This document shows positions 7,249-31,117 of a DNA stretch of 64,000 nucleotides, in pieces (position 1 is the first letter of the stretch; each line of letters starts with the position of its first letter). The notes beneath the pieces are model-generated. The model saw nothing but the letters and a program-made list of their open reading frames with translations, did not search any database and was not told the origin of the DNA. The position numbers and the translations under genes are program-made. The DNA comes from Ianthella basta (taxonomy: Eukaryota; Porifera; Demospongiae; Verongiida; Ianthellidae): NCBI GenBank assembly GCA_964019415.1, contig OZ025872.1:7519322-7583321 (forward strand), read 5' to 3'.

Positions 7249-7968
7249 ATGGCTGAAAAGGTAAAACTACAGAGATAGTGTACTATACATCAAATACAGT
7301 AGAGAACATGTGAAATTATATAAAATATATGTTCACAGATCTGCTAAAGATGTAATTTTATTATCCCACACACAAACTCGTGTATGAGTATACATAGTGT
7401 GTGCTTATTGCTGTTCTCATTGCTCATACAGAATGAAAACATAGATGGAGTACAGGGTCTGCTAAACAATGTAAGCAGACAGTGTGTCACACACACAGGC
7501 AGCACCAGAGGCTCACTACTGTTGTACGACTAGATGTGCCATTTACTGTACACTTCCTCCACTATCCCTTCAGGAGCGCAAGGTAGACAACGTCACTGGT
7601 ACTGTACAGTACACGCACAATGACATTCACAGTGAGGCACATACAGAGGTGAGTTGACAGAGACAAGTGAGAAGGCCTACAACTGCTACTCAGTATGTAG
7701 TGTCACAGCAGTGGATGTGTACACATCCATCAGTGCATGTTATGGCACACAGCAACTGCCCTGTGTATTGTCTTTCCATCTTTCTCAGACATTCCACAAA
7801 GTGTGCCCCATTTGCAACAAGTGTATGTCTCAGACAGTTACAATAAAGTATGATGAATGTGGTTGTGTTGAACGGGTGTGCAGTGATTGTGATGGTAAAT
7901 TACTGCAGTTAGGGAATGTCTTTTGCCACCTTCATGGCTTAAGTAAAAGAAAGAAACTTTCCAAATGA
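7249..7968 (+). CDS. Small Cys-rich zinc-finger protein, array member 1 (4 coding exons)
   Basis: Predicted 101-aa protein from exons 7249-7260, 7432-7470, 7574-7648 and 7789-7968. All three introns are GT-AG and phase 0: donors GTAAAA, GTAAGC, GTGAGT; acceptors CATACAG, CTTCAG, TCTCAG. The first exon contributes only MAEK after an untranslated part that starts after an acceptor at 7223. Exons 2-3 encode a polar, cysteine-free leader. Exon 4 holds the finger: CPIC, then C-x-C, then CSDC and finally CHLH, that is C-x2-C-x15-C-x-C-x5-C-x2-C-x12-C-x2-H, followed by the basic tail SKRKKLSK. Eight ligands in this order suggest a RING/ZZ-like two-zinc cross-brace fold (inference). No signal peptide or membrane segment. 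First member of a plus-strand array reaching 31.1 kb. Function unknown. Confidence 0.7.
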
Positions 7969-8451
7969 CCACTTCCTCATTTGCTCTTGTAAACTGCTGA
8001 AATCTGTCATTATGTATGATGTACATGTATGAATGCTGTGCTGTTACTTATGCATGTGTTATCAATGTGTAATGTTGATGCTCTAAGTTTCAAAAAGATT
8101 GAGTATGTGACAAGCTAAGCATGCTCAATCTGCCCACACTGCTGCCACTCTACAGAGATAATCCAATAACAGTCTAGCATCAGTGAAGTGAGCAAGCCAT
8201 GTCATAAGTCACAAACTTTGAAGTATGCATGGATTGAAAGGTCTTGCTGTTGAAATGCCAATTAGCATTCCATATGAAGCACCACAAAGATCGTATACAG
8301 TAGGCGTACATGTGAATACACATTATGTGACACTAGAGTGATGTGCCAAATGTGTAAGACATACAGTGGTAAGACGCATATAGTGTAGATCCTAGGTTGT
8401 AACTTGTGCAAGTCTTCAGCATTCCCACAGCTCATACAGCCAATGGAGCTA

Positions 8452-8594
8452 CACATAGCTACATCCTCACTTGTGGTGTACCCACACTTCCACAATGAAG
8501 AAACAATTCATTGTGCCTCAACAAGCTTAACCAAGATCACACTACTCCATCCACCGCCGATCATATATAGCCTTCTCTCCCTGCTGCTGTCTCA
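8452..8594. repeat. ~143-bp dispersed direct repeat, copy 1
   Basis: Nearly identical to 9558-9699, including the stretch ACTTGTGGTGTACCCACACT and a TATATAG motif in ACCGCCGATCATATATAG. The second copy sits inside an intron between the two finger exons of the next gene; this copy lies upstream of that gene. Probably a small duplication or mobile element. Confidence 0.8.
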
Positions 8595-9320
8595 TACGTA
8601 CGTATGTACTACACACTACACAGGGGCACAGGGGACTCATTCTATTCAACTTGTAAGTGTAAGTAAAAACCTTTGCAAACTTACAGAACCACTACACTGA
8701 ACTGATGCAGTTAAACCTATTCATTACGTGAATGACACGGAAGGTGAGACTAAGGTAAGCATTCACAGTGAGCCTACCAAAATGTACTCACTATAGCTAT
8801 GAAAGTGTACAAAACTGGAATTCCTGCACTGTACAGAAACTATATTGTAACACACTGTAGGAAATAGTACTGTATGAGGGAGTACTAAACCACAACTCAA
8901 CACGTCATCACACACACGTGCAGTGTCACAGGTTCCTAGAAATAGACGGAGGCACTTGTAAGAAAGAACCCAAAGTGAAAGATTAGTTAACCTTGCTGAG
9001 AAAGTGCAGAAAGGAGTGAAGGCAAAGAGATTCCTGTTGGAATATGTACGTAAGCATGCCTGCTACTCAGATCCAGAGATTGAAGGCTACCAGTGAAAAT
9101 CATTACTCTTCTAATCCTATTTTTTCAGCTAAGTTGGCAGTCTCTGAAGCTAACTCTACAATATGCCTGTACGTATCTCTGCTGCACTTAATTATGAGCA
9201 CACACACTTCAGCCCTAAACCCAATCATACACAACTGTATTCACACACTACCTGACACAGCAGTGATGTGGACCCACACACTGTACATCTATGTACTACG
9301 TACACTTTCATCCTGTTCAG

Positions 9321-9956
9321 AAGTGCAAGTTCTGTGGATGGCAGATCTCATCTGTAGTTCAAAGACAATTTGAGTGTGGTGATGTCTACTGGGTTTGTTA
9401 TGAGTGTGCTAATGTTCCAATATGCAGAAGGCATTACATGCAGAGAGATTCAGAACTAAACAATGCTCTGGTAAGAAACTATAAATCACACAGTAAATTT
9501 CTGCTGCTGTAAGACTCAGTCTACGTATGTCATGCCTTTGACTTGATAGAGAGCAAGCACATAGCTACATACATCCTCACTTGTGGTGTACCCACACTTC
9601 CACAAATGAGGAAACAATTCATTGTGCCTCAACAAGCTCAACCACACTCCTCCATCCACCGCCGATCATATATAGCCTTCTCTCCCTGCTGCTGTCTCAA
9701 CTCATTTAAAAGTAAACATAATGTCTTGTGGTAAACACTGTACCTCCCCGTGCAGGTCGAGTCCAATTGTGCTTTCTGTGGATACTATCAGACAACTACG
9801 TACAGCTTCAAGTGTGGATACAGCAGCTGTGATAGGCAACTGTGCAAGTGGTGTGTTACTGAGATAGTGTGTCCCATCCACCCCTCCAGTGGAGTAACAA
9901 AGAGAGATCAGAAGAAGGGAGATGACAGAGGAGCATTGCCAGTAGTGAAGTTCTAG
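9321..9956 (+). CDS. Two-finger Cys-rich protein, array member 2 (3-prime exons)
   Basis: Two exons are clear: 9321-9470 (50 codons) and 9756-9956 (66 codons plus stop), joined in phase 0 by a GT-AG intron (donor GTAAGA, acceptor CCGTGCAG). Each exon encodes one finger. The first has CKFC, an FECG turn, CYEC and CRRH; the second has CAFC, FKCG...C, CKWC and CPIH, then a basic tail TKRDQKKGDD. Earlier exons are likely: a frame ending ...RFLLEY at 9045 before GTACGT and one ending ...DTEGETK at 8755 before GTAAGC, both phase 0, but their starts could not be fixed, so the N-terminus is incomplete here. The one-exon-per-finger layout matches members at 25135-25705 and 30670-31117. Role unknown; zinc binding is inferred from ligand spacing. 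Confidence 0.65.
9558..9699. repeat. ~143-bp dispersed direct repeat, copy 2 (intronic)
   Basis: Second copy of the repeat at 8452-8594, located in the intron between the two finger exons of array member 2. It differs by a few substitutions and small indels. Confidence 0.8.
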
Positions 9957-9985
9957 TTAGACACTGTATCGGATTAAAGTTAGTC

Positions 9986-10430
9986 ATGGCACAAATACTC
10001 AAAGCATGCCTGCCTACTGCTGTAGCACACCATGTGATTCTTGCTACAGGTGGTGTGCTAAGTCATTGCCTCAAAGTATATCCTTGTAGGGGGAGTACCC
10101 ATTCAGGCAGCTGCCAAACAAATGCACCTACTGCCCAGTTGCATTCGCTTTGCCACAAAATGATACAACACCAAGTGAATGTACGTATCTTCACTGTACA
10201 GAGGAGTGCATATTGGTGCGTATACCTGCACACAATGCAGCTTCAAAACTGCTAGAGATACAGGGTGGTGCATCTGCAAGTCTTCGGTGACAATGCAAAA
10301 ATCTACTTACAGTAGAAGAAACCTGCTACCTGTAACAACAGTAATAAGCAGGCTGGGCCATACACATTCCCTCTGTGCTGGAGGAAGGCTCAGCAAACTT
10401 CTTTTGCTAGTTATATAGTAGGTCTAATGG
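9986..10430 (+). pseudogene. Possible degenerate Cys-rich unit
   Basis: Between two clear array members this stretch translates into cysteine-bearing pieces (a KCTYC motif near 10120 and CTQC near 10218) in different frames without the normal finger order or tail. It may be a decayed unit of the array or chance. Low confidence; no start, splice or stop can be defended. Confidence 0.25.
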
Positions 10431-11136
10431 CATGGTGCACACATGCTGCAGAAACAAGTTAGGTGGGAATACAGCTAAAGGAGCACTTATAAACTACAGA
10501 AACAATGTAAAAACAAGTTGCACAGTGCTCCTACAAACAGAATGGATGCCAACATTATCGGTTGAGAGAGGTTACTGGTAGTGAATTCTACAGGTCAATA
10601 TGCACTTACTGTATCACGAGGTGATGAATGGTGATTGCACAATATTGCACTCTTAAGTCTATTCATAAGCCATAACGTAATGCAGGGAGGACCTCCCTGA
10701 TTAACCACAAACGGCTCACACCAAAGAAGGCCTAGCGGACACAGACGGCAAATACCCAGGTACAGAAGGAACACCCTGGTGAAGTAACTTTAGGTGGAAT
10801 AGCCCACAACAAAGTAACACTAAGCACTGTACTCTTTTCCATAGAATCACTCTGACAGGATATACAGAGAACTCCAACAGAACATGCCTGTACGTAGGTA
10901 CCAGCATTCTGTCAATTCACCTATTACTAATGTAAATATCCAATTCAAAAGGTTGGGGCGGGGTGTGGGTGGGGGAGGAGGAATTGGGTGGAGGGATGGG
11001 GTAGGGGATGGGGTGGGGGATGTTCAGAGTACATCTCAGTCAGTTGGTAAAAAAGAGTAACACATCTTGGTGTATCAGCCAGTGACAGCTAATTCCCTAT
11101 TTCATAACACTTTTGTATTGCTCTTGGATGCTACAG

Positions 11137-11292
11137 AGTTGTGAGTGCTGTGGAGAAACCGTCACCAGCAGGCTGGTGCAGTTTGTCTGTGGCTGCTTCT
11201 ACTACCTGTGCTGCTGCTGTGTTTGCAAGGATGACACACTCTGCTGCATACATCAAGATTCATGCCCATGCAAAAAGTACAAACAGTACTGA
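11137..11292 (+). CDS. Cys-rich finger terminal exon, array member 3
   Basis: After a good acceptor (GATGCTACAG) an open frame of 51 codons runs to TGA. It has CECC, FVCGC, a run CCCC then C, CCIH and a final CPCKKYKQY, so the family order C-x2-C ... C-x-C ... C-x2-C ... C-x2-H is present, with extra cysteines. There is no usable ATG in the exon, so it needs an upstream exon; a candidate lies around 10886 (ATGCCTGTACG...), present also in the duplicate at 14633, but its splice donor is not clear. The same exon is deleted from the duplicated segment at 14.4-15.9 kb. Function unknown. Confidence 0.55.
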   Translation, partial: SCECCGETVTSRLVQFVCGCFYYLCCCCVCKDDTLCCIHQDSCPCKKYKQY

Positions 11293-11559
11293 ATGAGGCT
11301 TTAAATGGTGACAGTAGTGATAGTACTGGCCACACACAACACTTGCAAGTGCTGCTTGGGAACCATGAAACTGTAGTAGATTGATTCCATATTAATTGTT
11401 CAAGTGTGTTCACACTCAAGGGAATCCAGGAGCCAACCCACAGTGAGGAATAGCATGTGGTGCTTTAGTTGCTATCCAAGAATGGAACACTAGAGGTTAA
11501 AGGTGCTCTGGGTATCAACCGGAGGACAATGGAGGTTAGGAGTCAGTCCTGAGTAAGTA

Positions 11560-12102
11560 GCCTCATGGAGTATCACTTACGATAGCTGGGAACTACATTC
11601 CTTGTGGCCCAAGAATGTGCAGTGCTGAGTACAGTGGAGCTTCTACTTCTCTTTGCATATAGTTTATCCTCATACACACAATATATTCCAAACACTGTAA
11701 TAGCAATATTAACAAATAACATTCCTAACGGAAGTTCCACGTATACGTACCACATAATACATATTCAATAAGTACTATAATCACTATAAACTAATACCGG
11801 GAATCGTGCTACGGCAAAAATCAATACCAAGAACTCCCACAGAACTCTCTGTGACAGTCGGAGACGAGAACAACAGTTGAAGAAGTACTCACTTCAGAAC
11901 AACATTTTGTGAGTGAAACCTGAGGTAGTTAGAATACCATCATTAACATCTTCACGAATGAACTTACTGTTATACTACCAGTAACACTGTTCTAGAGAAT
12001 CTTTCAGTGCAATAGGGCCAGTAAGTACACCTATAAGTAATGATAGCTACCACTTCCACACTGTACATAGTGAAATCACTCCAAGGACAGCCACTACACA
12101 CA
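11560..12102 (+). promoter_or_regulatory. Array leader/promoter block (unit 12103)
   Basis: One of about ten copies of a block that precedes array genes. Landmarks: TTGCATATAG..., ACACTGTAATAGCAATA, CATACCAC/CACATAATACATATTC, a region with AATAC or AATATAAA followed by a GGAATCGTGCTACGGCAA-like motif, AACTCTCTGTGA, then GAAGAAGTACTCACTTCAGA, ACATTTTGTGAGTGAAAC, and CCAAGGACAGCCACT just before the ATG. Absence of long frames and the fixed distance to the ATG suggest promoter plus untranslated leader; that it drives transcription is inference. Confidence 0.6.
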
Positions 12103-12237
12103 ATGGGAAGCAGCAGTGCCAGGCTGAGGAAGCTGCAGTGCGGACACTATGTCAATGCAACTGCTGAGGAGGCCAAGCAACAACACTATTGCCGCATACA
12201 TGGATGGCAATATGTGGTTAAAGCAGATCAGAAATGA
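12103..12237 (+). CDS. 44-aa half-finger peptide, array member 4
   Basis: Single-exon frame starting at the ATG that ends the leader block; 44 residues, TGA stop. The N-terminal C-x2-C pair of the family is missing. What remains is LQCGHY (C-x-H), then CRIH (C-x2-H) and the tail HGWQYVVKADQK. The C-x-H and C-x2-H could bind a single zinc. It pairs with 15619-15753 as a duplicate whose flanks are about 98% alike while the coding part is far more diverged. The same start position is used by several units, which supports the ATG. Function unknown. Confidence 0.65.
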   Translation: MGSSSARLRKLQCGHYVNATAEEAKQQHYCRIHGWQYVVKADQK

Positions 12238-12360
12238 AGCAAAGGTCACACTACTCAGTAGTGTAAAACTGGTACTCATAAAGCATAGGCCTACACCATA
12301 ACCTGTAGTCACAAACATCAGCTTGTGTGCAGTGTGTACCCACTAGAGATTACATAGTCT
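12238..12360 (+). repeat. Array 3-prime block (copy after 12237)
   Basis: Contains GTAGTCACAAACATCAGCTT and GTGTGCAGTGTGTACCCACT followed by a GATTAATAGT-like run. Related sequences lie after other units near 15825, 17250, 20005, 21680, 22490, 23705 and, weaker, 26080. Probably the 3-prime untranslated region or downstream flank shared by the gene family; no AATAAA signal is evident. Confidence 0.6.
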
Positions 12361-12839
12361 GATTAATAGTACAGCATCCTTCAAGTGCACTGTGTGCTGA
12401 TTCGCTGCACAAATGACAACACTTACACTGCGCACAGTACACTCTGTGTTCACCTAACAGCTACTGTAAGCCTATGCTGGGTCCATGGGGAGAACTCCAA
12501 TGCTGGACTGCAACACCACACCAAAACCTGAAGGGTCAACCAAAAACCCTGCTAGAAGAGTAAGTGAAAGGGTAATTAACACAGTAGCTATCTCACAAGA
12601 CAGTGGGGTAGGGCTGTGTCAACATGTAGGCACAGACCAAAAAAGGACTATACGAAGCAGTCAGCAGCACACGAGGATTTGTAGGAGAGTACTTCTCGTT
12701 GCTACTGGTGATGCAACGCTGTAGGTCAAGTCAGTGCAGGCAGTCAATGACAGGCATCCTCTAAACGTAGCACCATCAGTTAATGGGCATAGCTTGCAGT
12801 CCTAAAGGTAGCACTGTGTGTGCCTAGTGTGCCGAGAAG

Positions 12840-13314
12840 TACAATCCTGAATAGGCTGAGAAGATACCGCCAATACTGGTATTTCCTGTGAGATCCACTA
12901 CTACAGTTCTTGCATATAGCTCACCGACGCAGACATTATACACAAATACTGCAGAAGAAATGAAATACTACGAATTTAGAAATGGCATTCTACGTACACC
13001 ACACATGCATATTCAACAAGTATGCCCATGAATAGGCACAACATCCAATATAAATGCACTGGTAAAAGGCGGTGAGGCATTTAGAAGTACAGTACCACAA
13101 GTTGGTCGGAAGTGAAATAGACTTGATTTGGCCTTCATTTCTACCACCACTGCAGAGAAGCAATACTTGTATTTCCTGTGAGTAAAATTATAACTTAATT
13201 CATTATATCATGGTAATCAATATCTACTCAAGTGAGCTTGTACTCGCACTGACCACTCTAATAGTAAGCTACCACTTTCCAAACACAGAAACACGCTAAT
13301 AACGACTCAACACC
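12840..13314 (+). promoter_or_regulatory. Array leader block, second subtype (unit 13315)
   Basis: Shares segments with 18750-19584: GGCTGAGAAGAT, ATGAATAGGCACAAC, GTGAAATAGACTT, TTCATTT(C/T)TACCACCACT and AACTTAATTCAT, ending with GACTCAACACC just before the ATG in both places. Includes AATATAAATGC near 13049, a possible TATA-type element. Promoter role inferred from position only. Confidence 0.5.
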
Positions 13315-13485
13315 ATGCCCAAATGTAAAAATTGTGAGAAAGACAGGATCAGCACTAAGAGGAGAAAACTCGTGTGTGGTTGCACTTATATGCTGTGCTA
13401 TACGTGTGCTCAAGGGATAATTTACTGTAATAAACATGGATATCAGGAAGTGAGAAAGAAAGATAAGAAGCGAGGCAAAGGTTAG
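13315..13485 (+). CDS. 56-aa single-finger Cys-rich protein, array member 5
   Basis: Intact single-exon gene, ATG in ACCATGCCC after the leader block, TAG stop. Ligands: C4, C7, C21, C23, C28, C31, C38 and H41, that is C-x2-C-x13-C-x-C-x4-C-x2-C-x6-C-x2-H, followed by HGYQEVRKKDKKRGKG. This is the cleanest example of the family. The order resembles a ZZ or RING finger (eight ligands, LC/MLC before the third pair), but the spacing fits neither exactly. The Lys/Arg-rich tail could bind nucleic acid or serve as a nuclear signal (inference). No signal peptide. Frame, composition and conservation with 29542-29696 and 21453-21635 make a real gene likely. Confidence 0.75.
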   Translation: MPKCKNCEKDRISTKRRKLVCGCTYMLCYTCAQGIIYCNKHGYQEVRKKDKKRGKG

Positions 13486-15074
13486 TTCATGGAAGCTCAA
13501 AGCTGGTATGTACGTACATTGAAAGGAATAGGTGTAGAACAGTATCTGACAGACATTAGCTATTGTGAGTTTGCATGCACTCCACATCAGCTACATACTC
13601 AGACAGTAGGTCTAATTGCTAATGCAAATTATTGCAACCCTTGAGCATGCTGTGCGTTGGTGTATCATTTATGATAAGTATGGCACCTCCTGCCAAACTA
13701 AGGGCAGGGATCTAACCTAGCTGTTTTCACTACAGTAATGGTGCAAAGATGGCACATAACAACACATTCTATGGTTACTCAGCAACATTTGAGGGTGGAA
13801 ACGTTTAAGAGCTAAACACCAGTAGCTTACAGCAGGGCATAGGGCTATTGGAGAAGGAATACAGGGTGCAACCAGGGTCACCTGAGAACACTGAATTTAC
13901 ATATGTAGGTGGGCATATATATATGTACGTAGATGGGCATTGGTATAGCAGAGCAGCTTTCACTGGATTAGGGTTAGGGATATCAGTGACTGCAGAAAGC
14001 AACAGCTCAGAAGGAAGTTGCAGATACTCAGTTCTCAATTCGAGAACAACGTGAGCTAGTGATCAGTGTTGAAGTGAGTACTTAAAGTGATCACTCTGAA
14101 CAGGTTCTATGCAATTACTCCCACCTGTTTACAGACAGGCACTGGCACATTCCAACAAAGAGAAAGAACCATTCAGGCATGCACAACAAACACAATGTAG
14201 ACTTCCTGTAGAAACCAGTTACATAAGTACAGGTAGGTGGGTTGAAACTGAGGGAGTAAGCTTAAACTACTAATTTCGTGCACATGTAACATGTTTGCTG
14301 CCATTTGTTGTCGACTGATCACTATTGGTTAAGAAAGAGGGTACTGTTAGTTTGCCTTTTGCCAACATGTGCACACCACAATTGCACAATATTGCACTCT
14401 TAAGCATATTCATATGCCATAACATAATGCAGGGAGGACCTCCCTGATTAACCACAAACGGCTCACACCAAAGAAGACCTAGTGGAAAACAGACGGCAAG
14501 TACCCAGGTACAGAAGGAACACCCTGGTGAAGTAACTTTAGGTGGAATAGCCCATAACAAAGTAACACTAAGCACTGTACTCTTTTCCATAGAATCACTC
14601 TGACAGGATATACAGAGAACTTCAACAGAACATGCCTGATGTACGTAGGAACCAGCATTCTGTCAATCTAGTCATGGCTGTCAATTCACCTATCACTAAT
14701 GTAAATATCCAATTCAAACGGTTGGGGCAGGGTGTGGGTGGGGGAGGAGGAATTGGGTGGAGGGATGGGGTAGGGGATGGGGTGGGGGGTTTTCACTGTA
14801 CATTTCATTCAGTTAGTAAAGAAAGAGTAGCACATCTTGGTGTATCAGCAACACTTGCAAGTGCTGCTTGGGAATCATGAAACTGTAGTACGTAGATTGA
14901 TTCCATAATAATTGTTCAAGTGTGTTCACACTCAAGGGAATCCAGGAGCCAACCCACAGTGAGGAATAGCATGTGGTGCTTTAGTTGCTATCCAAGAATG
15001 GAACACTAGAGGTTAAAGGTGCTCTGGGTATCAACCAGAGGACAATGGAGGTTAGGAGTCAGTCCTGAGTAAGT

Positions 15075-15618
15075 AGCCTCATGGAATAGCACTTACGATA
15101 GCTGGGAACTACATTCCTAGTGGCCCAAGAATGTGCAGTGCTGAGTACAGTGGAGCTTCTACTTCTCTTTGCATATAGTTTATCCTCATACACACAATAT
15201 ATTCCAAACACTGTAATAGCAATATTAACAAATAACATTCCTAACGGAAGTTCCACGTATACGTACCACATAATACATATTCAATAAGTACTATAATCAC
15301 TATAAACTAATACCGGGAATCGTGCTACGGCAAAAATCAATACCAAGAACTCCCACAGAACTCTCTGTGACAGTCGGAGACGAGAACAACAGTTGAAGAA
15401 GTACTCACTTCAGAACAACATTGTGTGAGTGAAACCTGAGATAGTTAGAATACCATCATTAACATCGTCTCGAATGAACTTACTGTTATACTACCAGTAA
15501 CACTGTTCTAGAGAATCTTTCAGTGCAATAGGACCAGTAAGTACACCTATAACTAATGATAGCTACCACTTCCTCACTGTACATAGTGAAATCACTCCAA
15601 GGACAGCCACTACACACA
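15075..15618 (+). promoter_or_regulatory. Array leader/promoter block (unit 15619)
   Basis: Differs from the block at 11560-12102 at only about ten of some 540 positions by eye. Same landmarks, including GAAGAAGTACTCACTTCAGA and CCAAGGACAGCCACT before the ATG. Confidence 0.6.
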
Positions 15619-15753
15619 ATGGAAAGCAGCAGTGCCAGCTGGAAGAAGCTGCAGTGCGAACACTACGTCGACATAACTGATGAGGAGGCTGAGGGACTAG
15701 TGTGGTGCCCTTATGGAGATGGATGGCAGTACGTGGTTAAAGAAGATCAGTAA
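15619..15753 (+). CDS. 44-aa half-finger peptide, array member 6
   Basis: Single-exon frame from the ATG at the end of the leader block to TAA. It is the duplicate of 12103-12237 but with many amino-acid changes. LQCEHY keeps C-x-H, while the last pair is degraded: CPYGDG replaces CRIHG, so the terminal His ligand is lost or moved. The tail GWQYVVKEDQ is kept. The frame is preserved despite the changes, which argues for translation rather than decay; zinc binding is doubtful. Function unknown. Confidence 0.6.
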   Translation: MESSSASWKKLQCEHYVDITDEEAEGLVWCPYGDGWQYVVKEDQ

Positions 15754-16531
15754 TGAACTAAAGATCACATACGTACAGTAGTTCAGTAGTGTAAAACTGG
15801 CACTCATAAAAACATAGGCCTAGAACATAACTTGTAGTCACAAGCTTGTGTGCAGTGTGTACCCATTAGAGATAATGTTTGACTGATTAATAGGGCAACA
15901 TACAGCATCCCTCAACACACAGCATACTGGTTCGCAGTATGAAACTGCAACACACACTGTGCGAGGTACACTCGGTGTGGACAGCTACCAGGAGCTCATG
16001 TTAGTACCATGATGAGAACTCCAATGACAGCTACTTGTGCTGCTGAAGTGGCACAAAGACTGCAAACAGCATACGTACCTACAACAGCACATTGAAAGTA
16101 AAGGGTTACTCAAAGATCCCGGATAATGCAGTAAATGAAGGGGTTATGAACACAGTAGCTACGTACCTTGCAAGCAAAATGAGGGAAGGGCTGTGTTAAC
16201 AGTGGGCACCATACAAAGTAGCCAGGGGCACACAAGGATTAATAGCGCAATACTTCTCACTGCTACTGGTTAGGCACAGTTTAGAGAAGTCATATGTAGC
16301 AGACACATCAGGCAGCCACAGGCAAGCAACAGTAATTGCACTGATGAGGTTCCTCACTCCATGCCGTGCACTGCTGTGCAATGAGCAACATGCACTTTCT
16401 TCTGTGACACTTAAATACAATAAAGCGTCCCTGTACAGTCAGCCAGTCCCATGGTGTGCACTGTAGATGTACTTGACACCACAGCATTCACACATATTGT
16501 ATGCTCTATTGATATACGAATGGGACATTGG

Positions 16532-17041
16532 TGAATCAAGTGAAAAAGAAACTAGTGCAGTGAAGCTTTTGTCACAATCCTTGCATATACTACCCTTACA
16601 TATTATACATAAAACACTACAATAGCAATAGTAAGAGAAGAGGGTGCCATAAAGGTCATCCCGTGCATACCACGTTATACATATTCAACAAGTTACGTAA
16701 TTATACCTACGTCACATCCAATACAACCAATACGGAGAACGGCAGACCAATACTAAGAATTCCAGAACATTTTGTGAGAGTCAGAGAAGAGAAGAATAGC
16801 TGAAGAAGTACTCAACTCAAGGTAACATTGTGTGAGTGAAACTACTAACACGAGTGAAGCACGTAGTTAGAATACTGTCAGTAGCATTTATAGACAAAGT
16901 GAGCCTGCTATTACACTATCAACATCAGACAATGTGTTAGATAATCTGTCAGTGCAGTACAATCAGTGTGGACACCTACTTTATGATCAGCTACCACTTC
17001 CTTAACACAGTACATCACTTCAAGGACAGCCACTAAACACA
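16532..17041 (+). promoter_or_regulatory. Array leader/promoter block (unit 17042)
   Basis: Leader block of the same family, ending CAAGGACAGCCACTAAACAC before the ATG. Its first ~390 bp recur at 17962-18349 with about 95% identity by eye. Confidence 0.6.
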
Positions 17042-17179
17042 ATGGGAGGCCAACATCACAGGCCAAGGAGGCTTGCATGCGGAGATACCGTGTCCGCAGC
17101 GGATGACGAAATAGTCAATGGACAATTGTGGTGTCCAAAACATGGATATCAGGACGTGGTTAAAGCAGATCTTCCATAG
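17042..17179 (+). CDS. 45-aa half-finger peptide, array member 7
   Basis: Single-exon frame, ATGGGAGGCC start immediately after the leader, TAG stop. Cysteines: LACGD (Cys with Asp two residues on, where relatives have His) and CPKH, followed by HGYQDVVKADLP. N-terminal C-x2-C pair absent, as in members 4 and 6. The sequence aligns throughout with those two and with the relic at 25895-26008. Function unknown. Confidence 0.6.
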   Translation: MGGQHHRPRRLACGDTVSAADDEIVNGQLWCPKHGYQDVVKADLP

Positions 17180-17961: not shown

Positions 17962-18349
17962 GTGAATCAAGAGAAAAAGAAACTAGTGCAGTGAAGCTTT
18001 TGTCACAATCCTTGGATATACTACCCTTACATATTATACACAAAACACTACAATAGCAATAGTAAGAGAGGAGGGTGTCGTAAAGGTTGTCCCGTGCATA
18101 CCACGTTATACATATTCAACAAGTTACGTAATTATACCTACGTCACATCCAATACAACCAATACGGAGAACAGCAGACCAACACTAAGAATTCCAGAACA
18201 TTTTGTGAGAGTCGGAGAAGAGAAGAACAGTCAAAGAAGTACTCAACTCAAGGTACCATTGTGTGAGTGAAACTACTAACACGAGTGAAGCACGTAGTTA
18301 GAATACTGTCAGTAGCATTTATAGACAAAGTGAGCCTGTTATTACACTA
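17962..18349 (+). repeat. Orphan leader/promoter block
   Basis: Nearly identical to 16532-16920 but the match stops abruptly at ATTACACTA, before the point where other units carry the CCAAGGACAGCCACT-ATG segment. No finger-coding frame follows; sequence changes to GGGGTATACACC. A truncated unit: leader kept, gene lost. Confidence 0.75.
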
Positions 18350-19584: not shown

Positions 19585-19944
19585 ATGGATATATGCAAGA
19601 AGTGTGAAAAACGCACGGAATGTACAAAGAGAAGAAAACTGGAATGTAGAAGGTGTGAGCCACTTGCCCTGTGCGACAACTGTGCCAAGAAAGATACGTG
19701 GCAGTGTACGACATGTGGATGGCCAACTAAAACTGTTACGTCCAAGTGTGCTCAAACACCTTTGGTTAACAGTGATTGCGAAGACGAGAGTGACACTGTT
19801 TGGACAAGGGGGCTGCAGCTGTGCAATCACAGATTGGATGTGTGCCATGAATGTACCCGCAAGCTAGTTCGCTGTCAGGATAAAAAATGTAATTATGCCT
19901 GGCAGTATGTGAAACAAGAAGATAGAGATGAAAGGCAAAGTTGA
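19585..19944 (+). CDS. 119-aa double-finger Cys-rich protein, array member 8
   Basis: Single-exon frame, ATG in ACCATGGAT, TGA stop, the longest uninterrupted array member. Finger 1: C4, C7, C21, C24, C30, C33, C41, C44 (C-x2-C four times). A linker rich in acidic residues (SDCEDESD) follows. The second module, residues 80-102, has C80-x-H82, C87-x2-C90, C97 and C102, and ends with WQYVKQEDRDERQS. Thus it joins a full finger to a half-finger of the type seen in members 4, 6 and 7, without an intron. H82 occupies the place of the fourth RING ligand, supporting a cross-brace comparison. Function unknown. Confidence 0.75.
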   Translation: MDICKKCEKRTECTKRRKLECRRCEPLALCDNCAKKDTWQCTTCGWPTKTVTSKCAQTPLVNSDCEDESDTVWTRGLQLCNHRLDVCHECTRKLVRCQDKKCNYAWQYVKQEDRDERQS

Positions 19945-21452: not shown

Positions 21453-21635
21453 ATGCCTACATGCCAGGTGTGCCAGCAAAACAAGGACACCACTAAGACC
21501 AGAGCACTGGAATGTAGCTGTAACTATGCCCTATGCCATGACTGTGCTCAGAGACGAGTATACTGCACCACCACAACAGTGTTCTGCACAAAACATGGAC
21601 ATAAGGCAGTGAGAAGTGCTGACAGGAGGTCCTGA
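21453..21635 (+). CDS. 60-aa single-finger Cys-rich protein, array member 9
   Basis: Intact single-exon gene from ATGCCTACATGCCAG to TGA. CQVC, then ECSCNY (C-x-C), CHDC, an extra Cys in RVYC, and CTKH followed by HGHKAVRSADRRS. Pattern C-x2-C-x13-C-x-C-x4-C-x2-C ... C-x2-H as in members 5 and 13, with a longer loop before the last pair. Preceded by a full leader block and followed by a 3-prime block (TAGTCACAAACATTAGC). Zinc binding inferred. Function unknown. Confidence 0.75.
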   Translation: MPTCQVCQQNKDTTKTRALECSCNYALCHDCAQRRVYCTTTTVFCTKHGHKAVRSADRRS

Positions 21636-22979: not shown

Positions 22980-23460
22980 ACTTTGCACTGTTGAGCTTCA
23001 ATTGTTTTCCTGGTACAACTCCCATACTTGTAAATTATACACAAACACTTCACTTATAAGCAATAGTAATCGTACAAGACGTTCACGCATGTATTCATGA
23101 AGTAACACAATTATGCACAACTTCTGATATAAACACAGCATTCCTGAGAATTGTAGATGGTAAATATTATAATAAGAACTCACGGCACTCTTTGTGAGAG
23201 CTGGAGAAGAGAGAACAGCTGAAGAAGTACTCACTTCAGAGCAACATTGTGTGAGTGAAACTACTAAACATGAGTGAGGTAGTTAGAATCAGTATCTTTT
23301 CATGAAAGAGCTTATGTACTGTTAGTGAACTTACTGTTATATGGACAAGTGTGTTAGAGAATATATCAAGCAATAGGACCAGAAAGTACACCAAAGTAAT
23401 AGTAAGTTCCACTTCCTCACACAGTAGTACCACAGTCAGGACTGTCACATACATATAGCA
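22980..23460 (+). promoter_or_regulatory. Array leader/promoter block (unit 23506)
   Basis: Leader landmarks present (CACTTATAAGCAATAGTAAT, TCTGATATAAACACAG, GAAGAAGTACTCACTTCAGA, CATTGTGTGAGTGAAAC), but the segment before the start reads GGACTGTCACATACATATAG, so the usual ATG position is lost. Confidence 0.6.
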
Positions 23461-23505
23461 CTACAAAACAGCGATCCTAAGCCAAGGCAGGCTCAGAGTG
23501 GACAA

Positions 23506-23640
23506 ATGAGTAATCCCAAGCCAAGGCAGGTTCAGAGTGGACAGACTGCTAACGTAGCTCAAGGGCAAGCCAAGCAGCCAGTGTACACTCCCCAATACGG
23601 GTATCAGGATGTAACTAAAAGGGAACAGAGGAAGAAGTAG
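23506..23640 (+). CDS. Cysteine-free 44-aa paralogue, array member 10
   Basis: First usable ATG after the leader gives 44 residues ending at TAG. There is no cysteine. The tail YGYQDVTKREQRKK aligns with the HGYQxVxKxD tail of other members. The N-terminal part is a repeat: PKPRQAQSGQ (before the ATG, in frame) and PKPRQVQSGQ, from a 39-bp duplication (about 23474-23551). It may be a pseudogene whose finger was replaced by repeat sequence, or a peptide where only the tail matters. The usual start codon is missing, which lowers confidence. Confidence 0.4.
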   Translation: MSNPKPRQVQSGQTANVAQGQAKQPVYTPQYGYQDVTKREQRKK

Positions 23641-24339
23641 TGCCCAGAACAGGAAGTGCAAAGCAGACTGCATTTAGGTCTACAGTAGAACAGCACTAGT
23701 AGCTATAGGCATCAGCTTGTGTGCAGTGTGCAGTAAACTAGACATCAGGGTTGATTAAAGGTGTGTCAACTACAACACACAAATGGAGCACAGTAAGGCA
23801 TGGTGCACTGTCACTGACAGTTATCCTTCAAGCATGGTCCACACTAGTGAACAGACATAGCTCACAGAAACAACCCACAAGTGTGTACTGTACATCCCCT
23901 CAGCCAGGGCAGCTACGACAGCAATATTTGGTCTAGATCAGGCTGTTTGCCCTATGCAACCACACCAATGTCACCACACTGTTCCTTACTTTTATGGGAT
24001 AACAGACTGCATAAAAAGACAGACAGGTAATGCTCTGCAAAAGGCTAGTGGAGAAGGAATGCAGTGAGCACCAGGGTCACCTGAGCTTTCACCTTAGTGA
24101 GGCAGTGGAATAATTCTTCCTGCCATACAGTTGACAGTGACGCAGGTAGAACTAGCCAGATGTGATAGACATAGTCAACTGCACGAAGAGCAACAGCCAC
24201 GCATTGAAGCTAGGACATTTGGGAATTTAAGTGGAAGGCAATGTACACTACAGCTCAGAGCTGCAGTGAGTGAGTACACTCACTAGAGTAGCAATTAAGA
24301 GTGCTGAAAATAACACCAAATAGCTCAAGAGCATGCTGC

Positions 24340-24832
24340 GCTGAGAACAGTGGTGCTTCTACCACTCCTTGCACATATGTACATAGCTCCCCTATTACAG
24401 TACTGTTACATTTATACACAAAACACTGTAATACAAAATGAATTAAGTATTTCTTAAGAACATGCCGTGCACATCACAAAAATACATATTCAGACGTACG
24501 CGCACTATCTAATATAAACACACTAACACTGGGATTCGTGGTACGGCAATTACAAATACCAAGAACTCCAGTGGTACCTCATGAAAGTGACGGCAGAAGA
24601 GGAGAAGTACATCAAAAGGATTGAGTTCACTTCAAAGCAACCTAGTGTGAGTAGAATTGTTAACATACTGAGACAATCACTTGGGTGAGGTGGCTATCCT
24701 CACAAGGCTGAGAGTCTGTTCTTACAGTGCCATCAGTAACAACATACACAGTAGCACACTGGTATAGTAAGACCAGTGGTGTTAGTAATAGCCAGCCACC
24801 ACTCGACATAGGAACACGCCAGTATTGGGAAT
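24340..24832 (+). promoter_or_regulatory. Leader/promoter and likely untranslated first exon (unit 25135)
   Basis: Contains CTATCTAATATAAACACAC (TATA-like, near 24508), GGGATTCGTGGTACGGCAAT, and the other leader landmarks. At the place where single-exon units carry the ATG, this one reads GTATTGGGAAT|GTAAGC (24832), a splice donor. The leader therefore probably acts as an untranslated exon spliced to the acceptor at 25093 (TTACAG). Confidence 0.55.
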
Positions 24833-25134
24833 GTAAGCACATACCTAACACAGAAAGTTGAATTACAGATCTAGAGTTAATAGAGTAAGTCAAAGGGTTA
24901 ATGAACACAATGGTGTATGTTATACATAGGCACTACTGGGAAAAGTAGACACGATCACTGACAGCAGTGAGAGCTGGTCTACAACCAATACCTGAATAAT
25001 TGCATATGCAGCTGTAATAAATCCAAAAGGCAGCTTCAGGAAGAACCAGAGATATAATAGAGAAATGACATGAGTACATTGTTACATTTACAGGGAATCA
25101 TTGTATTTCCAAGATCTTCAAGACCACACCGACC

Positions 25135-25705
25135 ATGGCAAGCAGGTCTCAAAAGAAAGTATGTAACTTCAAACAGTTGTGCACATGACCGTGATTGCAT
25201 AGAAATAGCACAATACGTATTATGTTCCAACACTTATGTACATAGATTAACACTTGTGCTCGATGTGGAAGCAAACGTGAATCTGCCTTGAACCGGGAGT
25301 TTGAGTGTGGAGTGAGAGAATGCATTCGGTGCTTGTGTTTCTACTGCTCTAACATACCCACATGCATAGATCACTCGGCACAAATTAATGTGAAAGCCAG
25401 TGAGGTGAGTACTAATCATTACAGTAACCAAAGGCATACTGCACCACTGTAATGAATGCAGTAATTACCCAAAGTAAAAGGCTTCAAATGGTAGGTAAGG
25501 ACAAGCTGTAAATTCATTGTCTGTTTTTCCATAGGGAGCAGGGGTGCTACGAAAGTGTGCATTCTGTGGGGATCAGAGGACGACTTACAAGTATACATGC
25601 ACAAGGCGTATCTGCCAGTTCTACCTGTGTGCATACTGTGCTACAGAGCCATTGTGCCAACGTCACAACAATGTTCTCAAGGCCAAAGACCGCAGGAAGA
25701 AATAA
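25135..25705 (+). CDS. Two-finger Cys-rich protein, array member 11 (3 coding exons)
   Basis: Exons 25135-25158 (MASRSQKK), 25246-25404 (53 codons) and 25535-25705 (56 codons plus stop) join in phase 0 through GT-AG introns (donors GTATGT, GTGAGT; acceptors TACATAG, TCCATAG), giving 117 aa. Finger 1: CARC, FECG, C...CLC, CFYC region, CIDH. Finger 2: CAFC, YTC, CQFYLC, CAYC, CQRH, then the basic end KAKDRRKK. Each finger follows C-x2-C ... C ... C-x2-C ... C-x2-H. An untranslated first exon in the leader block is likely. All frames and sites are intact, so this is the best-supported spliced member. Cytosolic or nuclear location is presumed as there is no signal peptide. Function unknown. Confidence 0.8.
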
Positions 25706-25894
25706 GAATTCAATAGATGCACACACATGGCAACATCTCACCTCTAGGACTAGTATTTGCAGCAGTAGGCTATGTGTGGACGCAATTTTTTTTAGGAACA
25801 CACTTTGTAGACCAATGGCATGTAATCACATTCCTGAGGAGCAGGGGCGGGGGGGGGGGGAGGGGGCAGAGGAGGCTGAAGCCCCTCCTTTTAA

Positions 25895-26008
25895 CAAGAA
25901 GAGGTGTATCAAAGTAACGTACGTCTTACTTCTGACAAAGTGGAGGGACAAGTGCAGTTTCCCAGTGGATATGGGTGGCAGAATGTAGTTACAGCAGATC
26001 AGGATTGA
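25895..26008 (+). pseudogene. Relic of half-finger peptide gene
   Basis: In one frame this reads ...TSDKVEGQVQFPSGYGWQNV and then VTADQD before TGA, aligning with member 7 (DDEIVNGQLWCPKHGYQDVV...). The zinc ligands are gone (FPSG for CPKH), there is no ATG, and a stop and a G-run (around 25848) precede it. The matching place in U2 (about 28665-28720) is more decayed. A dead copy in the tandem unit. Confidence 0.55.
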
Positions 26009-27129
26009 CATAAACACCATTACTAAGGAGCACAAGCTAACACTTGGAATAAGCATAGGACTAGAACTGCACTTGCCACAAACATCAACTAGAGTACATT
26101 GCGCAAAAATCAGATATTAGATAAGCAATACACAGCAATCCTAGAGTGCACCATCAGTGGACAAAATATGTGACTGCAGTTATTTGGACACTACGCAGGC
26201 AGCTGTATTTCAGGTGTAAAGCTGTAGGATACTGGAGGCAGTAATTTATCCTAACCCTTAAATTGAAGTGATCTCACACACTCACTAAAGTACCAGAACT
26301 GTATGTCTAATGAGCCCCAGAGCATGCTGCACCGAGTACAGTGGAGCCTCCAACACTCCTTGCACATACATAGCTCCCTTACACAATACGGCTATATTTT
26401 ATACACAAACACTGCAGTACAAATAAACTAAGCATTTCTTAAAAGATGTACCATCCACACCACAAAATGCATATTCAGACATACAGTACTCTTGATGGTT
26501 GCACATGATGGGGTGTACGATCAAAAACAGCACCATTCACAGTATGTGCAGCATGTTAAGCATACAGCAGGGATCTTGATGTTCTTCCTTTCAAACAGTG
26601 GGGAAGGGCTCTAAGAGTTACATAGCTACTTGTAATATTGCAGTAGCACAGAAACTACATACAACAGCACAAACTGCAGTTTAAAGGGTTATACAAACCA
26701 GAGTAAATCAAAGAGTTAAACCTACTAGTCGTGTTAGTGTGAGATAAAGGGTAGCACAAAACAACAGACACAGAGGCTGGGTTTTAGGGCCAGTGGAGAA
26801 AGAACAATACAGGGAGCAGGTAATGCTCTGCAAAAGGTTAGTGGAGAAGGAATGCAGGGAGCACCAGAGTCACCTGGGAAGTTTCATCTTAGTGAGGTAG
26901 TAGAATAATTCTTCCTGCCGTACAGTTGACAGTGACGCAGGTAGAACTAGCCAGATGTGATAGATATAGTCAATTGCACGAAGAGCAACAGCCACGCATT
27001 GAAGCTAGGACACTTGGGAATTTAAGTGGAAGGCAACGTACACTACAGCTCAGAGCTGCAGTGAGTGAGTACACTCACTAGAGTAACAATTAAGAGTGCT
27101 GAAAGCACCACCAAATAGCTTAAGAGCAT

Positions 27130-27630
27130 GCTGCACTAAGAACAGAGGAGCTTCTACCACTCCTTGCACATATGTAGCTACCCTATTACAGTACAGTACT
27201 GTTACATTTATACACAAAACACTGTAATATAAAATGAACTAAGTATTTCTTAAGAACATGCCGTGCACATCACAAAAATACATATTCAGACGTACGCGCA
27301 CTATCTAATATAAACACACTAACACTGGGATTCGTGGTACGGCAATTACAAATACCAAGAACTCCAGTGGTACCTCACGAAAGTGACGGCAGAAGAGGAG
27401 AAGTACATCAAAGGATTGAGTTCACTTCAAAGCAACCTAGTGTGAGTAGAATTGTTAACACACTGAGACAATCACTTGGGAGAGGTGGCTATCCTCACAA
27501 GACTGGGAGTCTGTTCTTACAGTGCCATCAGTAACAACATACACAGTAGCAATCTGGTATAGTAAGACCAGTGGTGTTAGTAATAGCCAGCCACCACTTA
27601 CTCAACATAGGAACACGCTAGTATTGGGAA
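27130..27630 (+). promoter_or_regulatory. Leader/promoter block of U2
   Basis: Nearly identical to 24340-24832, including CTATCTAATATAAACACAC and the donor TATTGGGAAT|GTAAGC near 27630. Its downstream gene is frameshifted. Confidence 0.55.
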
Positions 27631-27958
27631 TGTAAGCAGATGCGTACCTAACACAGAAAGGTAATCACAGATCTAGAGCTAATAGAGTAATGTAAGTCAA
27701 AATGTTAATGAACACAGTGATGTATGCTATACTTAGGCACTTTGAGAAGTATACATTATAAAGTGTATTCCTCACACAATCATGGACAGCAGTGAGAGCT
27801 GGTCTACATCCAATACCCAAGTAGTAGCATATGCAGCTGTGAGAAACCCAAGGGGCAGCTGCAAGAAGAACCACAAGGTATCAGAGAAATGACAATGTAC
27901 ACTGCTATTTTTACAGGAAACCATTGTATCTCCAAGGTCTTCAAGACCACACTGACCA

Positions 27959-28500
27959 TTGGCAAGCAGTAGCAGGTCTCAGCAGACAGTATGTAACTTA
28001 CCTAAAACAGCTGTTCAACATGTCAATGATTGCACAGAATCAGCGCAATGTTTCCATCACTTACTGTATGTAGATGAATACTTGTGTTCAATGTGGGAGC
28101 AAACGCAAGTCTGCCTTGAACCGAGGGTTCGAGTGTGGCCAATGCATCCAGTGCTTGTGTTACTACTGCTCAAACATACCCACATGCCCAGATCACAAGG
28201 CACCAATTAGTGTGATAGCCACTCAAGTGAGTATTAAACATTACAGTTAAAAACATACTGCATCACTGTAATGAATGCTGGTATACAAGGATGAACTGTA
28301 ACGTCATTGCCTGGTTTTCTATAGGGAGCAGGGGTGCTAAAGATGTGTGCCTACTGTGGAGATCAGAGGACCACTTACAAGTATACATGCACAAGGCGTA
28401 TCTGCCAGTATTACAGTACCTCTGTGCACCCTGTGCTACAGAGCCATTGTGCCAACGTCATGGGAATGCTCTCAGGGCCAAAGACCGCAGGAAGGAATAA
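27959..28500 (+). pseudogene. Broken two-finger Cys-rich gene, array member 12
   Basis: Duplicate of 25135-25705. Three lesions or changes: the start reads ACCATTGGCAAGC where the other copy reads ACCATGGCAAGC (one inserted T abolishes ATG); finger exon 1 (28074-28226) is intact and now begins with its own ATG (MNTCVQC...); finger exon 2 (28325-28500) has five extra bases (AGTAC, a local duplication near 28414) that throw the frame after CQYY, so the CAPC and CQRH pairs are out of frame. Splice sites remain. Finger 1 plus half of finger 2 could be made from the internal ATG, but the gene is most likely inactive. Confidence 0.7.
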
Positions 28501-29019
28501 GAATTCAATAGATGCACACACATGGCAACATCTTTAGGACTAGACCTTCCAGCAGTAGGCTAAGTGTGGATGAGTAGAGGAACACAGTAGTACACCATAA
28601 CATGTATTCACATGGTTGAAGTACGTATTATAGACGTAAGAGCAGGGTGAGAGGGGTGGGGGGTAGAGGAGGCTGGAGGCCCCCACATTTCAACAGGAAG
28701 AGGGCTGTCAAGGGTATGTCAACCGTTAAACCTTATTCCAACCTCTGCACTGTGCTTTGGCTTGCAAGAGCACACAACTACATTCAGGTTGTGCACAACT
28801 AACATGGCAGCTACTAAGATTTAGTGCCAAATCGAAACTGGACACCTAGGGATCACATGAACTGGATACTACACAGGCAGCTGTATTTCAGGTGTAAAGC
28901 TATGGGATAATGGAAACTAGTAATTAATCCTAACCCTTAAATTGAAGTGGCCAACCACACTCACTAAATAGGCAGAACTGTATTCCTAATGAGCCCCAGA
29001 GCATGTTGCACTGAGTACA

Positions 29020-29541
29020 GTGGAGCCTCCAACACTCCTTGCACATAGCTCCCTTACACAATACGGCTATATTTTATACACAAACACTGCAGTACAAATA
29101 AACTAAGCATTTCTTAAAAGATGTACCATCCACACCACAAAATGCATATTCAGACATACGCACACCATCTAATATAAACACACTAATTAGGATTCGTGGT
29201 ACGGTAATTATCAATACCAAGAACTCCAGTGGTACCTCACGAAGGTGACGGCAGAAGAGGAGCATATACGACAAACGATTGAGTTCAGTTCAGAGCAATC
29301 TTCAGGTTTGTGTGAGTAAAAGTGACTGTTAATAGACTGAGATAAATACCTATGAGAGGTAGTCAGATCACACAGCAATTAGTATGTATCTTCACACATG
29401 TGAGAGAGCCTGTTCCTACAGCTCCATCTGTAACAACATGCAAGGGAACCTGCCAGGGTGGTGAGGTCAGTGCTCGTTAATAATAGTGAGCCACCACTTT
29501 TCCAACACAGACACACAATTCTACTGAGAGTCAGCACTATC
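29020..29541 (+). promoter_or_regulatory. Leader/promoter block (unit 29542)
   Basis: Family landmarks: CTTGCACATAGCTCCCTTAC, ACACTGCAGTACAAATAAAC, CATCTAATATAAACACAC (TATA-like, near 29170), GGATTCGTGGTACGGTAAT, TTTGTGTGAGTAAA, GAGCCACCACTTTTCCAACA before the ATG. Confidence 0.55.
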
Positions 29542-29696
29542 ATGGCTAAGTGCAAGAAGTGTGAGAAAGATAAGTCAAGCACTAAAAGCAGAGAACTAGA
29601 GTGTGGTTGTTCTTATGACCTGTGCAAAGACTGTGCCAAAAGACAGTGAACTGTCCAACACACGGAAATCAGGAAGTGAAAAAGAAAGATCGGTAG
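29542..29696 (+). pseudogene. Single-finger Cys-rich gene with one frameshift, array member 13
   Basis: From ATGGCTAAGTGC the frame gives CKKC, ECGCSY (C-x-C), CKDC and then stops at TGA (29647-29649). The missing end is present directly after in another frame: CPTH, GNQEVKKKDR and TAG at 29696. A one-base insertion or two-base deletion around AGACAGTGAACTG explains it. Very close to member 5 (13315-13485) otherwise. Either a recent pseudogene or an assembly error; the lack of other damage leaves both open. Confidence 0.65.
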
Positions 29697-30669
29697 AAAT
29701 CAAACATGGCAGACAGAGCAGAGCTGATCTTAGTTCAGGTCCATAGGCAAAGGCACCATCTGTCAGACACAATAGCTATAGGTGCAGTGCATATCAAGCA
29801 GACATTATTAATGCTCATGCAACAATGACACAATGTGAAATGCGGCCATGCATTGTTCACTGTCAATTACAACATCCTGAAGAAATAGTCTGTAAGCGCC
29901 ACACTCTATGCATCTTAGCTTGATTCTGACTGTGCACACAAAGCGTGAGAGTGAATAGCCTGCCGCAGTGGACAAGACATACCAGCCATGAAAATGCCAC
30001 AATACTTACTGTACTGGTGTGCTGAGTGCCAGTGCAGGATAACAATAGCAGCAGCACTAAAGGCTGTGGCAAGTACCTCCTGTGCAGCTAACATCCCTTG
30101 TATGCCTGTCCTTCCAGCTGTACATGTCCACAGTAGGGCTATCACAACTATGTGTTAGTGGTACTGCATTAGCATTAGAAATGTTTGCACGCATTTAACA
30201 GAGGAAAGGTGAAGCACAGCTTGAGGGTTAATAGAGAAGTCAAAGAGTTAACATTACAAGTACTGAAGGGTAAAGCACAGGCACTAGTAATAACAGACAC
30301 ATACGTAACAGCACGTGTTAGGAGAAGGCGTAACTGTAGAAAGAAGATAAGCACATCCAGGGGATCGCAGACACTGTGTTGAGGAAAGGCCTCCTAACAA
30401 TCCTAACAAATCCTGAGTAAGTTCATAAGTAGCTGCCTGTGGCACACACACACACACATACACACACAAGAAGCAGCAGGAGGAGCCACAGGGTAGTAGA
30501 GAAACAGCATATATTATTACTCTTACAGGTAACTGTTGGAAATAACACACTAAAGTATGTCAGGTACCGCAAGCCACCACAGCAAGTATGCAACTTAGAA
30601 CAGGCGCGCCACTTGACAGTGATTGCAGAGAAATGAGCACAGTGACACTATGCTTCACCACTTAGGTAG

Positions 30670-31117
30670 ATGAACACTTGTGCTCATTGTGGAAGCACAC
30701 GCGAGTCTGCTGTGAACCGGGAGTTTGAGTGTGGCAAGTGTATTGTGTGCCTGTGTTACTACTGCTCTAACATACCAATATGCCGAGATCATGAGGCACA
30801 AATACAAGTCATTGAAGTGAGTACTAAATACTACGGTAACCAAACATTGCTGCACAAATGCACCGAATGCTGCAATAGCTCCAAATACACGAACACTTTC
30901 AATGGTATGCAAGAATGAACTGCAGTCTGATTGTCTGTCTTCATAGGAAGCAATGGCACTAGAAGAGTGTGCCTTCTGTGGGGATCAGAGGAACACACTT
31001 AAGTACAAATGCACAAAGGGTATCTGCCAGTTCTACCTCTGTGCACCCTGTGCTACAGAACCATTGTGCCAACGTCACAACAGTGTTCTCAGGGCCAAAG
31101 ACCGCAGGAAGAAATAA
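30670..31117 (+). CDS. Two-finger Cys-rich protein, array member 14 (2 coding exons)
   Basis: Exon 30670-30816 (49 codons from ATGAACACTTGT) and exon 30947-31117 (56 codons plus stop) join in phase 0 (donor GTGAGT, acceptor TTCATAG), 105 aa. Finger 1: CAHC, FECG, CIVC, CYYC, CRDH. Finger 2: CAFC, YKC, CQFYLC, CAPC, CQRH, end RAKDRRKK. An upstream exon like that of member 11 exists (ATGTCAGG near 30558, donor GTATGC at 30587) but joining it would put a stop at once, so translation from the finger-exon ATG is preferred. Last clear member of the array. Function unknown. Confidence 0.75.

Follow-up and report, generated by a model that had tools for sequence, protein, structure and literature searches.

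A 64,000-nucleotide stretch of the genome of the sponge Ianthella basta (C5:7519322-7583321; hereafter the window, from whose first base all positions without a contig label are counted) carries on its plus strand, from 7249 to 31117, a tandem array of 14 small zinc-finger units (u1 to u14) and one cysteine-free relic (u11c). A sequence-only reading had placed about fifteen tiny genes here; its limits coincide with the ATG that opens the first gene model and the stop codon of the last, 14 units are counted here, and the relic at 25895..26008 is one that it had not listed. The neighbourhood of the array was examined over 264 kb (the window and 100 kb on either side), and relatives were sought in the 209 Mb genome (96 contigs), with only the best candidates scored in these own-genome searches. 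Our leading reading, tentative and held at slightly less than even confidence, is that the array represents a protein-coding family of intact and decayed copies, whose products would be zinc microproteins acting inside the cell by binding to other proteins, perhaps in competition with RING or TRIM partners.

Units of the array

The full finger follows the pattern C-x2-C-x(10-14)-C-x(1,2,4)-[CD]-x4-C-x2-C-x(5-13)-C-x2-H in 14 of 17 rows (including u0, an outlying copy, u1 and the finger of locus L051); u8a departs slightly from it (x5 and a final Cys), and u4, u6 and u7 are half-fingers. Of the 14 full fingers, all of which have either Cys or Asp as the fourth ligand, 13 have His as the eighth, and in 13 the gap from ligand 4 to ligand 5 is four residues. 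Another set of 14 fingers, full or partial, was aligned, leaving out the half-fingers u4, u6 and u7 as well as u8, u10 and u12b; each of the eight ligand positions is at least 90% conserved, if not invariant, in this alignment, whose rows are 25-63% identical to the first. The cross-brace ligand order proposed from the letters is supported.

A search of six frames of the 264 kb with the pattern C-x2-C-x(10-14)-C-x(1-4)-[CHD]-x(4-5)-C-x2-C-x(4-13)-C-x2-H, drawn from the array units themselves, gave 13 raw matches, i.e., 12 distinct fingers. Eleven lie in the window (7804-31078), all on the plus strand to which every unit had been assigned, and the twelfth is u0 (C5:7515038-7515346, minus strand), an inverted relative of u1 outside the window, 11 kb upstream of the array. 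Elsewhere in the 264 kb examined, to which as opposed to the genome this zero count applies, there was no match, nor was there any in 15 first-order Markov simulations. Profiles built with one subgroup left out recovered u5/u9/u13, u11a/u12a/u14a, u11b/u14b, u2a and u2b at E values of 1.3e-5 to 2.8e-12 (the two u2 fingers at 2.8e-12 and 1.1e-8), gave weak values for u1 (0.0064) and u0 (1.8) and did not recover u3 (E 12), so that the membership of these last three rests on ligand pattern and position. Judged by these counts and profiles, the finger array exceeds chance.

The encoded proteins are 44-119 residues long, and intact, half-finger, double-finger, cysteine-free and broken copies lie side by side, in agreement with the copy turnover and the lengths first described. 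Single full fingers are encoded by u3 (11128..11292), an open reading frame of 54 residues with the full ligand pattern, and, together with a tail, by u5 (13315..13485, 56 residues) and u9 (21453..21635, 60 residues), while u8 (19585..19944) is a single-exon double finger of 119 residues with a degenerate second finger and a tail. By eye, four units consist of two finger exons across a phase-0 intron: u2 (9321..9956; exons 9321-9470 and 9756-9956), u11 (25246..25705; 25246-25404 and 25535-25705), u12 (28074..28500; 28074-28226 and 28325-28500, the frame of the second finger being broken) and u14 (30670..31117; 30670-30816 and 30947-31117). Short leading exons, all of phase 0 and likewise placed by eye, precede the finger in u0, u1 and the L051 gene; in u1 (7249..7968) the four exons are 7249-7260, 7432-7470, 7574-7648 and 7789-7968, with the finger in the last. 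The finger of u13 (29542..29695) resembles that of u5 and has a broken frame, u10 (23506..23640) encodes a cysteine-free protein of 44 residues that retains leader and tail (GYQDVTKREQRKK), and u11c (25895..26008) is a cysteine-free tail relic (..GYGWQNVVTADQD) with no in-frame ATG. Two duplicate blocks, 10634-12502 and 14381-16026, are about 90% identical, and the second lacks 257 bp holding u3 (segment 11080-11336).

The half-finger u4 (12103..12237, 44 residues with its tail) reads C-x-H-x14-C-x2-H: it retains ligands 3, 4, 7 and 8, lacks 1, 2, 5 and 6, and keeps between ligands 4 and 7 the gap of 14 residues seen in u5. The corresponding ligands are C, D, C and H in u7 (17042..17179) and C, H, C and perhaps D in u6 (15619..15753), which is missed by the half-finger pattern that matches u4 and u7. 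A relative on C18 reads C-x-H-x14-C-x3-H in the 76 bases fetched and also lacks ligands 5 and 6. In the TRIM21 B-box2, site I is formed by Cys92, His95, Cys111 and Cys114 and site II by Cys103, Asp106, His120 and His123 (PMC5533445); the ligands kept by the half-fingers are those of such a second site, which supports cross-brace pairing, yet their retention may represent one evolutionary loss and is no proof of pairing.

The tails share a recurring motif, [HY]-G-[YW]-Q-x-V, which survives without a finger in u10 and u11c, the latter being found at E 3.6e-4 by a profile built without it. Lys/Arg-rich tails are present in u1, u5, u9, u10, u11b and u14b, and zinc fingers often bind nucleic acid; the main rival explanation, that the units are small nuclear DNA- or RNA-binding factors whose finger holds the fold while the basic tail touches nucleic acid, draws on these tails and appears unlikely. 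The tails of u4 (VVKADQK), u6 (VVKEDQ) and u7 (VVKADLP) are not basic, cross-brace domains mostly bind proteins, and no nucleic-acid-binding Pfam family exceeded the cut-off in the scanned sequences.

Leaders, bodies and selection

At 10 units a TATA-like box lies 106-139 bp before a GTGAGT donor, or, in u8, before the donor-like GTATGAGT. Box and donor stand at 11785 and 11909 in u4, 13049 and 13178 in u5, 15301 and 15425 in u6, 16720 (TATA-like AATACAAC) and 16832 in u7, 19133 and 19269 in u8, 21147 and 21253 in u9, 23128 and 23251 in u10, 24513 and 24647 in u11, 27309 and 27442 in u12, and 29173 and 29312 in u13; u14 has no such pair within 950 bp upstream. Across the window, TATAAA occurs 100-142 bp upstream of 8 of the 34 GTGAGT sites, and all 8 are at finger units. 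With exon 1 set to start 30 bp after the TATA box and acceptors picked by eye, a spliced 5' untranslated region was modelled for 8 units; the acceptor falls 24-81 bp before the finger ATG (its end being at 12070 in u4 and 13288 in u5), and in seven of the eight no other ATG precedes it in the predicted transcript, u8 being the exception. We predict for many units a TATA-like promoter of their own and a non-coding first exon whose splice junction lies shortly before the finger ATG.

Small, Cys-rich, tandem genes with TATA-like promoters also recall metallothioneins, and the products might accordingly buffer metal. We regard this as very unlikely, given that the number of ligands is fixed and their spacing nearly so, that the tail is kept in a cysteine-free copy, and that the 300 bp before 11 TATA boxes hold a single core of the metal-response element against 4.0 expected.

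One leader common to the units had been proposed, and this stands for two groups: between TATA box and donor, u4, u6, u7 and u10 are 76-99% identical, and u11, u12 and u13 88-99%. Many other pairs are not clearly above the 65% reached by shuffled sequence in the same gapped alignment and are too diverged to judge. The leader of u7 (16531-16918) recurs at 95.6% identity as an orphan (17962..18349, plus strand), after which no finger unit was found before u8. The genome search located u11-type leaders in the array only (6 matches).

Leaders and bodies are shown by their mismatches and junctions to differ in history. Between u4 and u6, 1 of 124 positions differs from TATA box to donor against 24 of 130 in the coding sequence (p 6e-5 versus the intron, p 0.05 versus the next 100 bp) and 35 of 141 farther downstream; between u11 and u12, the corresponding counts are 1 of 133 in the leader and 27 of 153 in the first finger. 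Introns 2 and 3 of u0 and u1 differ at 7 of 243 positions and their finger exon at 19 of 177 (p 0.0016), and u13 joins a leader like that of u11 and u12 (88-89%) to a u5-like body. Conversion or recombination between units would be the simplest reading of this mixture, part of which may stem from duplication borders rather than from conversion.

Selection was assessed in nine pairs, with p values that are uncorrected and pairs that are not independent. In frame 0, nonsynonymous difference (pN) fell below synonymous difference (pS) in u11a/u14a (p=0.003), u12a/u14a (p=0.005), u5/u9 (p=0.005) and u11a/u12a (p=0.04), i.e., in four of six full-finger pairs and none of three half-finger pairs; in these four, stops interrupt frames 1 and 2, whose p values are at least 0.08, and frame 0 is free of them. 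A first, protein-aligned count had given ratios of 0.19-1.07 in nine pairs, four other pairs being saturated. Purifying selection is shown in this way, from substitution counts, on part of the full fingers.

Relatives in the genome and among known families

The family had been described as confined to a single locus, a claim that is contradicted by the half-finger relative on C18 (58% identity, E 5.7e-6, tblastn with u4) and by DNA relatives of the u4 unit at seven places in C2:3920992-4075383, 23-28 kb apart, and at C2:6754582 (E values to 5e-47). For six of these seven places the alignment begins at query base 188, two bases past the TATAAA start, and runs through the coding sequence to 694, 737 or 800; for the seventh it covers 614-737. 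Further finger genes lie at C5:7095446-7095664 and, as four tandem copies 76-78% identical to it, at C6:9476606-9481255; they share only 31-35% identity with u0 and u1 (E 0.008-0.13), and the common ligand pattern and phase-0 exons favour their kinship with the array. Matches to u8 on C18, C6, C7, C1 and C5 are weak (E 0.03-0.8), and weak genome matches on C9, C11, C15, C22 and C3 were not accepted. At C11:4067891-4067983 (L005), C-x-C-x4-C ... GNQQVKK ends like a tail and could be a dispersed relic, with non-significant E values of 0.085 (finger profile) and 5.3 (tail profile).

Beside the C5 finger gene lies a minus-strand array of 14 tiny RING-like frames (C5:7068274-7094501), which accounts for 14 of the 15 matches; one of the frames is interrupted by a stop. 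Two readable frames, copies of which lie in L051, follow C-x2-C-x11-C-x-H-x4-C-x2-H-x4-C-x2-C and have no Pfam match over the cut-off.

The family is indeed unrecognised by the profiles consulted: scans of 7, 13 and 6 sequences, in partly overlapping sets, gave no Pfam family over its cut-off, and no PDB profile match fell below E 0.02. Among RING-type families the best score was that of zf-RING_4 in one unit (19.4 bits against a cut-off of 27), and the PDB search with the first alignment had an IAP RING on top at E 0.023; a wider alignment, for which ClpX came first at 0.07, raised that value to 0.88-2.2. The B-box family zf-B_box (PF00643) did not appear among the matches of 7 sequences at E<=10, 13 at E<=1 or 6 at E<=5, and the ZZ finger (PF00569) was not listed for any scanned set. 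By profile, RING and B-box membership is not supported, no match being over the cut-off. Of 237 candidate PF00643 matches in the genome the best 150 were scored; 149 of these exceed the cut-off, and all 150 lie outside the array. On C8, C13, C15, C16, C1 and C21, long open frames with B-box matches, many of 700-850 residues, occur in clusters that suggest TRIM-like arrays.

In ligand order and spacing, as far as the aligned letters go, the finger is placed between RING and B-box. The TRIM21 B-box2 ligands (Cys92, His95, Cys103, Asp106, Cys111, Cys114, His120 and His123; PMC5533445) are spaced 2-7-2-4-2-5-2, and those of u12a and u14a 2-13-2-4-2-5-2, i.e., identically from ligand 3 onward, with Asp at ligand 4 in u2a as well; this agreement keeps a cross-brace-like working plausible even though membership by profile is not supported. 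Across the full fingers, x4 between ligands 4 and 5 occurs in 13 of 14, and x2 between 5 and 6 and between 7 and 8, as required by the pattern, in all 14, the putative cross-brace topology being read from the half-fingers. Unlike B-box2, the array has a longer loop between ligands 2 and 3 and Cys rather than His at ligands 2 and 7, and no RING or coiled coil is seen attached. The order C-x2-C ... C-x-[CH] ... C-x2-C ... C-x2-ligand is shared with RINGs, including the compact IAP RING (BIRC7, BIRC2/3), from which the array differs in a wider gap between ligands 4 and 5 (four residues against two or three) and in having mostly His at ligand 8; its ligand set is absent from the eight RING types given in PMC3166285.

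Similarity of the ligand string to the Cys-rich end of piggyBac-type transposases had also been noted, together with a mismatch in detail, and the mismatch is upheld. That the units are domesticated or fragmentary ends of this kind is the least probable of the explanations, close to dismissible: the genome holds 10 matches to the family (PF13842, E<=1), none of them in the array, the family was not listed for the scanned sequences, and, of four loci with piggyBac-type fingers, the array profile reached L045 and L047 at E 6.4 and 11 and left L046 and L048 unlisted at E<=20. The hhalign probability is 2%, though above five shuffled controls.

Beyond the sponge, the prokaryote genomes searched gave 50 pattern matches and no relative, and viral contigs searched with u11b gave 2 pattern matches and 1 accepted relative, whose match of 19 residues falls within L052 in a frame of low complexity (profile E 6.3) and is put down to chance. 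The open-licence literature searched showed no such finger family. KRAB and C2H2 zinc-finger genes form tandem clusters. They are likewise thought to change fast, as outlined in PMC4592553, and differ from the array in ligand pattern, size and architecture.

Within the window the array is accompanied by an NHL-repeat gene and a Kelch-repeat gene, and an alpha-N-acetylglucosaminidase gene lies just upstream of the window. A further gene (33414-34384) has by eye a signal-like start and a short Gly-X-Y stretch, its C-terminal part being without a Pfam match at E<=0.01.

Proposed role of the microproteins

Under the reading that we favour, a full unit would yield a stand-alone microprotein of one, sometimes two, eight-ligand cross-brace fingers and a short tail, basic in several units. 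One zinc would sit at ligands 1, 2, 5 and 6 and the second at 3, 4, 7 and 8; zinc binding, topology and location are all inferred. No signal peptide was seen by eye, and action inside the cell is taken for this reason. Protein-protein binding through the finger face and the tail motif would be the likeliest mode, and the products are proposed as probable adaptors or competing partners, in the manner of microProteins, of larger RING, B-box or TRIM-like proteins. MicroProteins, as outlined in PMC6003976, interfere with a larger protein of compatible domain, whereas no larger protein with the array finger was found in own-genome searches with single proteins. Tandem duplication would multiply copies, which also decay, and recombination or gene conversion would pair leaders with different bodies.

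Several results weigh against this reading. Frames are broken in u12b and u13; no significant selection was seen for u11b/u14b (p 0.10), for u0/u1 (0.54) or for any of the three half-finger pairs (0.05-0.32), and for u4/u6 the value of an off-frame (p 0.053) beats that of the coding frame (p 0.23). Poly(A) signals occur within 600 nt at 5 of 15 units, about the density expectation, and the C2 places are missing from the tblastn matches of u4. The non-coding neighbours of u11 and u12 diverge about as much as the finger (13/92, 24/137 and 44/294), and intron 1 (34/145) and 3' flank (24/129) of u0/u1 more than the finger exon; because divergence is also high in such non-coding stretches, what is kept would be the leader or certain tracts, and the coding part is not alone in having diverged. 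In hhalign comparisons with sets of two to four sequences each, probabilities were 4% for IAP RING, 2% for the piggyBac-type fingers and 7% for the L051 RING-like pieces, all above the five shuffled controls, and three TRIM5 B-boxes scored within them.

Part of this evidence suits the second rival, a formerly functional gene whose copies multiply and decay with no function left today, as do cysteine-free u10 and u11c, the orphan leader at 18 kb and the lack of significance in five of the nine pairs. Purifying selection in four full-finger pairs, the near-invariant ligands, the TATA/donor pairs at 8 units and the C18 copy that keeps half-finger ligands 3, 4, 7 and 8 speak against such a relic, and we consider it decidedly improbable.

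A wider form of the microprotein reading, speculative and rather doubtful, envisages a genome-wide cassette system in which several arrays (the present one and perhaps C2:3.92-4.08 Mb, C6:9.48 Mb and C5:7.07-7.10 Mb) would recombine promoter-leader segments with finger, half-finger and tail bodies, giving co-expressed, fast-changing decoys or adaptors that tune the large RING/TRIM repertoire of this animal in immunity or self-recognition. In that case, evolution would have dismantled a cross-brace domain to leave, in the half-fingers, one stand-alone zinc site and a tail. A putative immune or recognition role is, for its part, compatible with the copy turnover read from the locus.

Tiny genes with short spliced leaders are easily overlooked by annotation. 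If the reading as zinc microproteins is true, this animal maintains arrays of single-domain proteins of an unnamed cross-brace family, in which the promoter module is kept and the body changes. The half-finger genes would offer a natural test of cross-brace ligand pairing and of whether one zinc site can stand alone, and arrays of variable, similarly controlled small proteins would be candidates for conflict or recognition systems.

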